Below, piece by piece: positions 910 to 63,749 of a stretch of DNA of 64,000 nt. This DNA comes from Paracamarosporium sp. OC-R06-R3 (taxonomy: Eukaryota > Ascomycota > Dothideomycetes > Pleosporales > Didymosphaeriaceae): the NCBI GenBank assembly GCA_019828545.1, contig JACVRA010000090.1, positions 1 to 64,000 of the forward strand, given 5' to 3'. The notes beneath the pieces are model-generated. The model ran no database searches, had not been told where the DNA came from, and worked only from the letters and a program-made list of their open reading frames with translations. Every line of letters starts with the position of its first letter. The stretch's first letter is position 1. A program made the position numbers and the translations under genes.

Positions 910-1423
910 GAGTAGTAACAATGAGTGTAAATATTGATCAAACAATTTAAATCGGTATAGACTATAGATATAGAATCGTGGTCGATAGAAATGATTCGAT
1001 CAAGTCCTATGCGTGAAAGTGTTCCATTTCACGAAGTACTGTCCTTGATGTAAAGCATTGCTTGAACTCCATCCACCAAAATCAAGAAACGTCATTTTGG
1101 GTAAGAACTCAGCTAAAACCCGGAAACCAAACAAACCATCACACATTCTTCCTTCGAAAACACCCTTATACCTTTAATTCCCGCCAAACCCGCAAGAAGC
1201 AGTACATCTCTTCACACGACCCCCCGCGCGCGCACTAGTCACTCTAGCTATCCACCTAACCGAGCACCCCACACCACAAACCACTCGCTTCCTCCCCAAT
1301 AACAAACAGACCCTCACATGCAAGCACCACTACTCGTAACCATTCTCTCCAAACTAACAAGGATCCACTCCCGGGATATATAACCCTCAAATCCAGCGAG
1401 CTGCATCGTGATTGGTTGAATCC
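910..1423. other. Intergenic region upstream of the tRNA gene
   Basis: I find no supported gene. It contains the 3' flank of the NTF2-like gene and the 5' flank of the tRNA gene, including a TATA-like element described separately. Confidence 0.5.
1375..1383 (+). promoter_or_regulatory. TATA-like element upstream of tRNA-Val
   Basis: The sequence GATATATAA lies about 41 nt before the tRNA 5' end. Upstream TATA elements assist TFIIIB placement on tRNA genes in some fungi. That it acts here is inference. Confidence 0.4.
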
Positions 1424-1547
1424 GGCCGCTTGGTCTAGTGGTGTAAGTCCAGTCCAACGCAACCATGCACCTCCTATATACTAATCTTCCCCAGATGACG
1501 TGACCTTCACACGGTCAAGGTCCAGAGTTCGATCCTCTGAGTGGTCA
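1424..1547 (+). tRNA. tRNA-Val(CAC) interrupted in the D-loop
   Basis: Exons are 1424-1442 and 1495-1547. Joined, they give a 72-nt tRNA without CCA. The acceptor stem pairs GGCCGCT (1424-1430) with AGTGGTC (1540-1546), with two G-U pairs, and A1547 is the discriminator. The D stem pairs GTC (1433-1435) with GAC (1497-1499). The anticodon stem pairs TGACC with GGTCA around loop TTCACAC, so the anticodon is CAC (valine, GTG codons). The T arm is CAGAG-TTCGATC-CTCTG. Invariant bases T8, A14, G15-C48, G18G19, A21, T33, T54T55C56, A58 and C61 are all present. The A box (1431-1441) and B box (around 1527-1535) are intact and a T6 run follows. Without the removal the D arm cannot form. The interruption falls between positions 20 and 21, not at 37/38 where eukaryotic nuclear tRNA introns normally sit. 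Confidence 0.88.
1443..1494 (+). other. Spliceosomal-type intron inside tRNA-Val D-loop
   Basis: These 52 nt start with GTAAGT, carry an ACTAAT branch-site match at 1480-1485 and end in CCCCAG. Length, donor, branch site and branch-to-acceptor spacing match the protein-gene introns in this window, for example 6174-6228. I see no bulge-helix-bulge-like pairing of the kind used by tRNA splicing endonuclease, though I cannot fold it formally. Removal restores a complete tRNA exactly. Confidence 0.75.
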
Positions 1548-1553
1548 TTTTTT
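1548..1553 (+). terminator. Pol III T6 terminator
   Basis: A run of six T residues directly follows the discriminator base, as expected for RNA polymerase III termination. Confidence 0.8.
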
Positions 1554-16300: not shown

Positions 16301-17850
16301 TGTCAAGGTTGTCGGTGTCAAAGATCTTGACCTACCTTTACCCAAGAGTAAGTTGCCGCCTCGCTCACTGCGATTGTTTGCTAACTTGATGCTTCAGCCG
16401 AGCGCACGTGGTTCCAGCTTACGCTCGACAACGGTCTGCATTGTGTGACGACGACGTGGCTAGAGCTTGGCCATTCTGCTCCTATTGGCCAGGAATTTGA
16501 GCTCGTTGTTTTGGACGACCTAGAGTTCCAACTCACTTTGCAGACCAAACTTGAGCCGCCTACTCAGCCAACTGTTACTGCAGCTCCAGTCAAGATTGTC
16601 AATCACAAAAAATCGCACTCTGCATTCCGCAACCTTCTCTCATCTCCCAAGAAGCGAAAGGAACAGGAGCGCAAGCAACAGGAAGAAGCCGAGCGTCTCG
16701 CTCTTCAGCAGCAGCAAGAAGCACAGGAGAAGGCGAAGCGGAACCATAAAGCAACTGCTTGGGACCTTCTCCATGACCTGGTCGGTCCTGATGGGTCTTT
16801 TGCTCGTGCCTACGTCTGCCTTAACAACCACGAAAACCAAGCCTACGGTCGACCGCTCAACGTCGATATTCCTTGCTTCAATGAGTGGGCCGTTGACAAT
16901 ACCGGTGCAAGCAGTGTAAAGAGCAAGCGTGGTGGTGTGGTTCGGCGTCCGCCTTACCGAGTCGGCAAGCTTGCTCTTCAGCTGCTATACGTCCCGAAGC
17001 CCAAGAATGCGAAGGACGAGGACATGCCCAAGAGCATGAACGCCTGCATTCGTGAGCTACGAGAAGCAGAAGACGTCAAGAACCAGTCTTGGGAAGGACC
17101 TCTAAGCCAACAGGGTGGTGACTGCCCAGTAAGTGCTCATGATATAGGACCCCATACGAATCAATGCTAACATTCAATTAGTACTGGCGTCGCCGATTCT
17201 TCCGACTCAACGGCACCAAGTTGACCGCTTATCACGAAGCCACTCGGCAACCACGTGCAACAATCAACCTTGCCAAAGCGACTAAGCTCATCGATGACAA
17301 GTCTGCTCTCCAGCAGCCATCATCAACGAAGAGCGGTGGTCGTCGCAAGTCCGCCTTTGCTGAGGAAGAAGAAGGCTACATGTTTGTTGAAGAGGGCTTC
17401 CGTATACGATTCGCCAATGGCGAGGTCATCGACTTCTATGCCGACAGCCGCGAACAGAAGGAAGGCTGGATGAAGGTACTATCGGAGTGCGTCGGTAAAG
17501 ACATTGCCGGCGGTCGTGGCTGGGCTGAAATGGTGCTCGACAAGGAGCGACGAGAAAAGCGATCTCAGCCAGAGCCCTCACCAGCGAAGACAAAGCGAGA
17601 AAGCACCGCAGTAAACGGACAGCCACCGCTACAGCGACCGCGCTCACACGAAGGTACTGCTGGTAGCCAATCCATGCCTTCAAGTCCCGTCAAGCGCCCT
17701 GGACACTCGCGGACAAAGTCAGCCATGCCCGCTCCTCCGCCCCCGATCTCAAAAGATGATCAGCACAAGAGCGGGACTGCACCTCGGCGGAAGGAAGTTC
17801 CTGGTGGAGTGGCAAACCGCAGAGATCAGGTTCGATCGATGATTTTCTAA
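13327..17850 (+). CDS. BUD4: Bud site selection protein BUD4 (anillin-like, PH domain)
   Basis: Predicted exons 13327-13401, 13452-16347, 16398-17128 and 17182-17850 give 1456 aa. Introns are 50-53 nt with CTAAC branch sites. The first acceptor may instead be 13469, which would drop six residues. The N-terminal 800 residues are disordered, Ser/Pro-rich and acidic, with a run of eight Glu encoded by a GAG repeat near 15470-15491. The C-terminal third has the anillin-type region (from TERTWFQLTLDNGLHC), a Gln/Glu/Lys coiled coil (KRKEQERKQQEEAERLALQQ) and a PH domain starting YWRRRFFRLNGTKL and ending KEGWMKVLSECV. Fungal Bud4 organises septin and actomyosin rings at the septum. The full domain order makes this a firm call. 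Confidence 0.9.
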
Positions 17851-61718: not shown

Positions 61719-63749
61719 TTACAAACCCTTGTCCTCTAGATACTCTTGTACCCGATCCACTAGATCTGCTTTCTTTCCGCTGATCGCCTGTCCCCTGGCA
61801 GCTAAGTACTCTTTAAGCACAGCAACAGTCTGCTTAGTGATTTGACCCTTGTCGTTGATATCAGCCATCTGTTGGTCCGTCAGTCCTTCACCTCCGTCCT
61901 CATTCTTGACTTTAGGCTCCTTTTTAACACGCTTCTTCGGTTTCGGTTCATCATCGTCGTCATCTTGCGCTGCAGCTGCAGGACGCTTCTTCGCTGCAGG
62001 CTTCGGACGGGAGGATAATGCGGAGCGACCCACGGTAGTAAAAACGCGGTCAAACTCCTCGCCATACGCTTGTATGTATTCTCCCGCGCGTTTATTGATC
62101 TGCTTGTATTTGGGTAGTGTCTTGTCATCTGGTTTAGTGGGAACCTCTTCTTCGAGGGCCATAGCCTGCAAGATGCGATAAAACCACTGCAGATCCGGAT
62201 TCGGGTATTTGCTCGGGTCGTACACACCCTTCGGTAGTTGTAGCTGCTCGACGATGATACGCATCTTGTCCGTAAGCTCATCCGTTGTCCGTGGTTCCGC
62301 GGGCTGTTCGGGGCATTGGCGAAGGTCGTCTGCATATGGGAGCTGGATAAGCCACAATCCGGGCGGCATTGTTTGCTCGCCATTCTCATCGTAACGTTCT
62401 TCGCCCGGAATTATCGCTGCCATTACGGGCGCTGCGTTTTTGCGTGCTACAAACCATGCCAGAGCCATTTTCTTGGACTTGATTAACTTTTGCTGGAGAG
62501 CGGAGAAGACGCGTGTTGAACCGATGAAGTCGGCTTCGGAGGGATACATAAAAGTCGCCTTGCCTATATTTGCCCAGAGGGGAAGGAAGGAAAGCGGCTT
62601 GAAGCCGACAATGCGGATGATGGGCTCACCGAAGCACTGCCGGATTTGAACGAACTCTTCTGGGGTAAAAGTTATGGTGTCGCCTCCAAACTTATACGCT
62701 TTGCGTATTTCAGTCTTTTCCACTACACGGGCTGTGTCGTCAGCCATATGTGAGGTGGAGCTCTGCACAATTTGCGGCTTCTCGCCGCCAACCCAAACGT
62801 AGCATGACTTGACGTGCTCTTGGCGCTTGATGAGGATAAAGCCCTTGACCCCTATTTGCAGACCAGGTCCGATCTCAAAGGGGAGGCTAAACAATGCTCT
62901 TCGCGGTGCAGCTTTTGAGTTTATGGAAGAAAGGAGTTGTTTGAGAAGGGTGAGACCATCTCCGCTTTTTGCGACTTTGGTAGTAGATGGGATAGCCACA
63001 GGTGCGTCCGGGTCCGATGGAGACGTGGGATATACCAAGTCGTCATAGAACCTCGTCCGATCAAAACTGTGGTCTGGTTTGGAAATAGGAAACAGGTCAA
63101 TTGTGCATCCTAAGTCATATAAATCACGGGCTCGTGTTATCGCCGTGTCCTTGTCCTGCTTGACTGCGGCCGGACTATCGTTGTCCGTGACTAAGAAAAG
63201 TCGTCGTGAGGAAAAATTGGGAGCCTTTGTCGTAAAGATTTGGTTTGCGCAGAATAGCACCGTCGCAATGCTAGCTGGACCTTTCGCAGGTTTGAGGATC
63301 TCTTGGGCCTCATCCTCGTTTTCCAATAGGTCTCGCAGCTGCTTCACATCCCCTGCAGACGGTATATCCAGATCTGATAGCAGATAACAATGCTGAAACG
63401 TGTTGTCCCCGTCTTTCAAGTCCGTCTTTTCGGTACCAAACAAGAGGATGCCCATCATATCTTTTGGGTTCGAGATAATGCGCTGCTGCATAAGATGGTA
63501 AGCGCATTTGAGGGCAGCGGATGCTGGGGAATCGCGTTCGGCTTTCTTGTCGTCTGAGAGCGGGGGGCGTTCCAGCATGGATGCGCTGATATCGATCGCG
63601 AAGAGGACGGCATCTTTAATGGTTTTGTAGCTCTATTGTGCGTCAACATACGGTTCCCACTGAAGGCGTAGGAATGCCCATACGGTATCATCAATCTCCT
63701 CCTCTTCGTCTTCCTCCTCACCGGGTCGGTGATCTTGAGTGTCAGCCAT
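61719..63749 (-). CDS. KU70: Ku70 DNA end-binding protein
   Basis: Predicted exons 63749-63684 and 63632-61719 give 659 aa. The 51-nt intron (GTATGG, TTGAC, AATAG) joins the acidic EEEEIDDT to SYKTIKDAVLFAIDISASML, the start of the von Willebrand-like domain with its DISAS metal-site-like motif. The core beta-barrel follows (LKQLLSSINSKAAPRRALFS and FTPEEFVQIRQCFGEPIIRI). A linker DDDDDEPKPKKRVKKEPKVK is nuclear-signal-like. The C-terminal SAP domain is TVAVLKEYLAARGQAISGKK through LVDRVQEYLEDKG. Ku70 pairs with Ku80 on DNA ends for non-homologous end joining and telomere care. The full domain order makes the call firm. Confidence 0.92.

Follow-up and report, generated by a model that had tools for sequence, protein, structure and literature searches.

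Whether a nuclear tRNA gene can carry an intron of the mRNA type is the question raised by a locus near the start of the window, by which we mean the entire stretch of 64,000 nucleotides that was analyzed. The window is the start of a 189-kb contig (G000:C331) in a genome of 43.09 Mb and 337 contigs. To our knowledge, the nuclear tRNA introns of eukaryotes are described as essentially one class, located at 37/38 and cut by Sen, with rare algal exceptions, and we know of no spliceosomal intron in a nuclear tRNA gene.

A tRNA-Val(CAC) gene with a GT-AG insert

An earlier note on this DNA had described a tRNA-Val(CAC) gene at 1424-1547 in which positions 20 and 21 are separated by a GT-AG insert of 52 nt with the signals GTAAGT, ACTAAT and CCCCAG, and which is followed by a T6 terminator. 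All of these features are present (Table 1), and ARAGORN identified the joined exons as tRNA-Val(cac) with a length of 72 nt. The joined tRNA has U8, A14, G15, C48 and the GG of the D-loop. The note had also counted all four stems, which holds for the acceptor stem (7/7 pairs, including two G.U), the anticodon stem (5/5) and the T-stem (5/5) but not for the D-stem, which has three pairs and a T13.T22 mismatch. Among alternative registers of the insert, up to 3 nt to either side, none had both GT and AG ends.

In the unjoined window sequence, no tRNA was found by ARAGORN, and with long introns allowed the program assigned the wrong name, tRNA-Gly(tcc), to the unjoined gene at 1424-1547. The Rfam tRNA model stayed below threshold on the unjoined window, with only a partial 16-bit match at 1493-1539. 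A search of the genome with the joined Val tRNA returned the gene itself and no other match.

Table 1. Features of the tRNA-Val(CAC) gene, in window coordinates, and the eight tRNA genes with GT-AG inserts, by contig and locus.
Feature	Location	Strand	Length or insert	Remark
tRNA-Val(CAC) exon 1 (positions 1-20)	1424-1442	+	19 nt	direct reading
Putative GT-AG intron between tRNA positions 20 and 21	1443-1494	+	52 nt	direct reading
5' splice site GTAAGT	1443-1448	+		direct reading
ACTAAT, branch-site-like	1480-1485	+		branch A at 1484, 10 nt upstream of intron end
3' splice site CAG	1492-1494	+		intron end reads CCCCAG
tRNA-Val(CAC) exon 2 (positions 21-73)	1495-1547	+	53 nt	direct reading
Anticodon CAC	1508-1510	+		gene without 37/38 intron
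A box TGGTCTAGTGG	1431-1441	+		uninterrupted
B box GTTCGATCC	1527-1535	+		also matched by the T-arm search patterns
T6 Pol III terminator	1548-1553	+		direct reading
TATATAA box	1377-1383	+		47 nt 5' of tRNA start
Val(CAC)	C331 (window)		52 nt at 20/21	
Ala(CGC)	C37 (L065)		53 nt at 25/26	also 37/38 intron
Ala(CGC)	C18 (L160)		48 nt at 25/26	also 37/38 intron
Pro(CGG)	C69 (L135)		57 nt at 34/35	between first and second anticodon base; also 37/38 intron
Leu(CAA)	C306 (L151)		48 nt at 18/19	also 37/38 intron
Glu(TTC)	C22 (L162)		54 nt at 13/14	also 37/38 intron
Ser(GCT)	C327 (L183)		53 nt at 18/19	
Ser(GCT)	C333 (L184)		52 nt at 18/19	

Several other features were recorded around the gene. A short GATA tandem repeat lies just 3' of it at 1605-1623, and a blastn search of the window region against plasmids gave no match. 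The long ORF at 61719-63578 (minus strand) encodes Ku70. Its nearest named relatives, with 90% identity, are Bimuria novae-zelandiae and Paraphaeosphaeria sporulosa, by which the organism is placed in the Pleosporales, within or close to Didymosphaeriaceae, the lineage to which Bimuria belongs. The acceptor stem and discriminator of a tRNA-Trp(CCA) gene (L120, C155:33111-33193), GGCCGCT/AGTGGTCA, are the same as those of the window Val(CAC).

Survey of tRNA genes with GT-AG inserts

The tRNA genes were surveyed with patterns for the T arm, which are blind to interruptions elsewhere in the gene, and the matches were then read individually. At least eight nuclear tRNA genes with a GT-AG insert were identified among approximately 101 nuclear tRNA gene places read, each on a different contig. 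The 101 places represent 97 ARAGORN calls, which include four miscalled insert genes and one or two doubtful loci, and four uncalled places (the window gene, L151, L162 and L183), with identical sequences on the same contig counted once. The census omitted contigs C26 and C300, in which many tRNAs look mitochondrial, as well as contig C316. The census is a lower bound, since the RF00005 search scored 63 of 1284 candidates, and genes that have neither a nearby T4/T5 run nor a GGG/CCC T-stem were reached only through that search or by luck.

The joined tRNAs of the eight genes are complete or nearly complete, and ARAGORN assigned the expected identity to the joined exons of each (Val cac, Ala cgc twice, Pro cgg, Glu ttc, Ser gct twice and Leu caa). 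In the anticodon stem of the Leu(CAA) tRNA, T29 and T41 are mismatched. The Glu(TTC) tRNA departs from the consensus at T15 and G48 and has a variable loop of 4 nt; with these bases and a broken A box, it may be a poor gene. Introns at 37/38 are found in most tRNA genes read in this genome, and five of the eight genes (both Ala, Pro, Leu and Glu) contain such an intron of 13-31 nt in addition to the insert. In Pro(CGG), the two introns flank an exon of only 3 nt, GGG, which completes the anticodon.

None of the eight inserts is located at 37/38, the position of Sen-type introns. The five different insertion sites suggest that there were probably at least five intron gains. Seven more genes, with inserts of the same anatomy at four other tRNA positions, support what had been proposed for the Val gene, namely an mRNA-type intron within a tRNA transcript of Pol III. 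After four genes had been found, a restriction of the inserts to anticodons with C34 was considered; this idea was ruled out by Glu(TTC) and Ser(GCT).

Variation in the anticodon region was also observed at other loci. Five Ala(AGC) genes (L071, L084, L119, L121 and L122) share one tRNA body and have 37/38 introns that differ in length and sequence, with one gene lacking the intron. Three tRNA-like loci, L155 (C61:163312-163533), L159 (C53:686080-686253) and L136 (C81:55225-55452), each have a good T arm, acceptor ends that pair and a terminator, with about 45-140 nt extra in the anticodon region and, as we read them, no U33 at the expected place in the loop. The anticodon stem of L159 could be extended to 8 pairs. 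These three loci may be more interrupted tRNA genes, or decayed copies.

Splice signals of the inserts

All eight inserts are 48-57 nt long, start with GTA[AT]G[TA], contain CTAAY and end in YAG. The 5' ends are GTAAGT in five, GTATGT in two and GTAAGA in one, and the 3' ends are equally divided between CAG and TAG (four each). Every insert contains CTAAC or CTAAT, with the branch A located 9-13 nt from the end. No family likeness among the eight could be distinguished from the background of the aligner.

We defined the full motif as GTA[AT]G[TA] at the start, CTAAY 9-13 nt before a YAG end, and a length of 48-57 nt. It occurred in 4 of the 1,278,950 segments of the window (both strands), namely the Val insert, two joins of successive long ORFs and a segment at 2579-2635 on the minus strand. 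The remark in the earlier note that the Val insert is like the protein introns here is borne out by the two joins. The ends of the motif coincide with the tRNA junctions in all eight tRNA inserts. Based on the rarity of the motif in the window and the position of its ends, we rejected chance occurrence of GT-AG.

With wider limits, 32 intron-like matches were predicted in the window, as compared to 18.4 +/- 4.3 (maximum 31) in 40 shuffles; the 32 are predictions within set limits and include the Val tRNA intron and two overlapping pairs. Their lengths are 45-75 nt, mostly 47-63, and the distance from the branch A to the 3' splice site is 6-18 nt. Some join successive long ORFs, for example those at 16348-16397 (50 nt) and 17129-17181 (53 nt). 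The other tRNA introns were also inspected, as cut by ARAGORN and thus with those of miscalled genes wrongly cut. Of these 82, none starts with GTRNGW and 15 contain CTRAY, while a single one, of 11 nt, has both a GT start and an AG end.

The splice signals also bear on how the inserts could be removed. Self-splicing introns of group I, which are known from tRNA genes of bacteria and organelles, or of group II might be considered here as well. The core of either ribozyme requires some 200 nt or more, and 48-57 nt is far too short for both; nor did Rfam at its curated thresholds give any match in the window. We therefore rejected self-splicing on length and give it practically no credence.

Alternatively, the tRNA-splicing endonuclease could cut the inserts, which would then be ectopic introns like those of the red alga Cyanidioschyzon merolae and of cryptomonad nucleomorphs, with GT-AG ends that are incidental. 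Introns in the D arm and at other ectopic positions of eukaryotic tRNAs do exist in these organisms, according to the accessible parts of two papers (PMC3978253, PMC4090602). We searched for a strict bulge-helix-bulge (BHB) in the eight genes at three registers each, and the central 4-bp helix reached at most three pairs in all 24 tests, by which an endonuclease intron with the strict motif was rejected. The accessible text of PMC3978253 states that many nucleomorph tRNA introns form no defined BHB, so the absence of the motif is not decisive. However, a BHB has no need of GTAAGT, of CTAAY or of a spacing of 9-13 nt, and these signals are retained in pairs of introns that have otherwise diverged (see below). 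We consider cleavage of the inserts by the endonuclease highly unlikely.

Comparison of paralogous genes

The inserts might also be dead, in the sense that the genes are pseudogene copies and the cell uses others. For the Val gene, the earlier note had named as signs of a dead insert a lack of the insert in relatives and intact tRNA-Val(CAC) genes elsewhere. Half of this was found, in the form of another Val(CAC) gene without the insert at C334:256116-256205. This second gene has only an ordinary 37/38 intron and has diverged from the window gene (56 matches in an alignment of 78 columns). It rules out the window gene as the sole Val(CAC), and with this copy present the window gene by itself would not be essential. 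Second genes with only a 37/38 intron were found for Glu(TTC) and Pro(CGG) as well, and the insert-bearing copies of Val, Glu and Pro could thus be dispensable. Such insert-free copies, together with the non-consensus features of the Glu and Leu genes, are what speaks for dead inserts.

The paralogue pairs point in the other direction. On C90 there is a Pro(CGG) gene without the insert whose mature tRNA of 72 nt is identical to that of the insert-bearing gene on C69; by this sequence comparison, the genome itself contains an empty site. Between the two Ser(GCT) genes, the exons are identical (81/81), while the aligned introns agree at 38 of 51 bases, which is within the range for shuffled introns (mean 0.72, 95th percentile 0.84). 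Likewise, the mature tRNAs of the two Ala(CGC) genes are identical over 72 nt, and their GT-AG introns match at 31 of 44 bases (shuffle mean 0.71). Unlike their GT-AG introns, the short introns at 37/38 in the two Ala genes differ little from each other. In the 60 nt upstream, the matches are 34/52 for the Ser pair and 38/49 for the Ala pair, given here as raw counts with no shuffle control. Constant exons around drifting introns argue for selection on the spliced RNA. Gene conversion of exons may add to the identity of the paralogues.

The case for necessity rests on Ser(GCT), since both copies found carry the intron. This is the only tRNA that reads the codons AGC and AGU. In the complete list of 57 T-arm matches (Y48, GTTCRA, A52-T62 and a nearby T4), the Ser(GCT) T arm occurred in these two genes only. 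Seven intronless tRNAs found with the T-arm patterns (on C213, C111, C334, C337, C32, C95 and C78) are also present in the RF00005 list, and this overlap suggests that an insert-free Ser(GCT) gene would have been seen. The Ser(GCT) exon pattern had no match in viral and prokaryote contigs.

Random insertions would moreover not be expected to have spliceosomal ends in eight genes out of eight. Dead inserts were thus rejected as a general explanation, on the Ser and Ala pairs and on Ser(GCT) as the sole reader of AGY codons, and we regard this explanation as very improbable.

Pol III signals and the predicted maturation pathway

As Pol II transcripts are the usual substrates of the spliceosome, the tRNAs could be embedded in transcripts of this polymerase, spliced as mRNA-like precursors and then trimmed out. 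The signals in and around the genes are those of Pol III. The B box is intact in all eight genes, and a run of T4-T6 begins within 8 nt of the 3' end in each of them. The A box is present in seven of the eight unspliced genes, the exception being Glu(TTC), where it is broken by the insert at 13/14. At 18/19, the first GT of the intron is the same as the next GT of the exon, and this coincidence explains why the A box survives the insert in the Leu and Ser genes. The upstream flanks were examined in six genes (all but Pro and Glu), and TATA boxes were found 39-47 nt upstream in four: Val, both Ala(CGC) genes and Leu(CAA), in the last three as TATATA at -39 to -44. A Pol II route would furthermore have to arise in eight unrelated contexts. 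These results argue against transcription by Pol II, to which we assign only a very small probability.

Other Pol III-like elements were observed during the survey. We take C302:51952-52330 (L147, L156), recognized by eye, to be the U6 snRNA gene, and no intron was found in it. In U6, this fungus thus offers no example of its own of the known Pol III precedent, which counts against our interpretation. About 100 nt 3' of this gene lie a B-box-like GGGTTCGAGTCC and a T-run; SNR6 of S. cerevisiae has such an arrangement of B box and T-run downstream. Some Val(AAC) genes and Arg(CCT) have on their 3' side a second T-arm-like hairpin followed by a T-run (L114 on C203, L142 on C131, L115 on C334 and L088 at C327:244154-244186). 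The hairpin is CTGCGTTCGATTCGCAG in L114 and L142, differs by one base in L115, and is GCAGGTTCAATTCCTGT in L088; it is possibly an additional B box or a terminator feature. A repeat that ends in a B box (about TGCGCGTTCGAACCCTGGTCCAGCC) and a T-run, with an unpaired T-stem, was seen on C118, C202, C214, C241, C260, C298, C335 and C112, and is possibly derived from a tRNA.

Based on the anatomy of the inserts and the comparison of paralogues, we infer removal by the spliceosome, and we consider it likely that the inserts are U2-type spliceosomal introns in functional nuclear Pol III tRNA genes. In the pathway that we propose, Pol III would transcribe the genes from their internal boxes, and U1 and U2 would recognize GTAAGT and CTAAY on the uncapped pre-tRNA, as in U6 genes with introns. 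The spliceosome would then excise the 48-57 nt in the nucleus, and only thereafter could the cloverleaf fold, RNase P act and the tRNA be exported. In five of the eight, Sen and Trl1 would finally take out the additional intron at 37/38. The folded tRNA body is the reference from which Sen measures, and the D arm is interrupted or adjoined by the inserts at 13/14, 18/19, 20/21 and 25/26, for which reason the spliceosome should act first.

In a broader reading, translation in this fungus would depend directly on the spliceosome. Maturation of all Ser(GCT), and probably of all Ala(CGC) and Leu(CAA), would proceed through U2-type splicing of their Pol III transcripts. Several tRNAs would pass through the spliceosome and then Sen/Trl1, in Pro(CGG) around an exon of 3 nt. 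We find this combined picture plausible, with the balance somewhat in its favor.

If true, a second class of tRNA introns, removed by the spliceosome, would link mRNA splicing to the supply of tRNA. It would also mean that the spliceosome can process small, highly structured and uncapped Pol III RNAs other than U6. The paired genes with and without the intron would represent a set for studying intron gain. For annotation, it predicts that essential tRNAs reported missing may be interrupted by GT-AG introns, for which tRNA finders have no model. Since the finders used here missed or misnamed such genes, the class may be widespread in Pleosporales and have gone unnoticed, its members being taken for missing tRNAs.

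Comparison with known systems

A literature search that covered few of the subscription papers found, among the titles and abstracts listed, no report of a spliceosomal intron in a nuclear tRNA gene. The text of a review of tRNA introns has no word beginning with "spliceosom" (PMC4090602), and noncanonical introns are modeled for archaea in tRNAscan-SE 2.0, according to the part of its description available (PMC8450103). As introns, the inserts fit a known kind by every feature tested, whereas as tRNA introns they would, judged by their sequence, form a class for which we found no description.

Canonical 37/38 introns, which are removed by the Sen endonuclease and the Trl1 ligase, likewise interrupt tRNA genes and must be removed before the tRNA is used. 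The inserts differ from them in position, in their ends, in their uniform length of about 50 nt and in their splice signals. The ectopic introns of C. merolae and of nucleomorphs are likewise eukaryotic; they occur in the D arm and at other positions, and some genes contain two or three of them. In the accessible parts of two papers, the tRNA endonuclease is described as acting on those of C. merolae as BHB substrates, and those of the Guillardia nucleomorph are given as 3-24 nt long, with a mode of removal described as unknown (PMC3978253, PMC4090602). Unlike the inserts here, neither is described in these parts as having GT-AG ends and a branch site.

The introners of Pezizomycotina represent recent gain of spliceosomal introns in ascomycetes, and the main text of the source contains no word beginning with "tRNA" (PMC9860276). 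Introners are repeated copies; among themselves, the eight tRNA introns show no clear family likeness. A parallel in a structural RNA is found in the rDNA of lichen fungi, which has short U2-type spliceosomal introns that are spliced out; one of 57 bp was also removed from yeast rRNA, according to the accessible text (PMC8527467). The inserts are likewise short and of putative U2 type. The lichen introns differ in that they reside in a Pol I transcript, not in a tRNA, and that their precursor undergoes no second splicing of the Sen type.

The U6 snRNA genes of S. pombe and other fungi contain mRNA-type introns, as the tRNA genes here appear to do. For U6, itself an RNA of the spliceosome, the introns have been attributed to accidental splicing at the active site. 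No comparable connection with the spliceosome exists for tRNAs, and an intron of the Sen type is found in addition in five of the eight tRNA genes. In S. pombe U6, the spliceosome acts on a Pol III transcript, as described in the accessible part of the source (PMC8917221), and this is the action that we propose for the tRNA genes described here.
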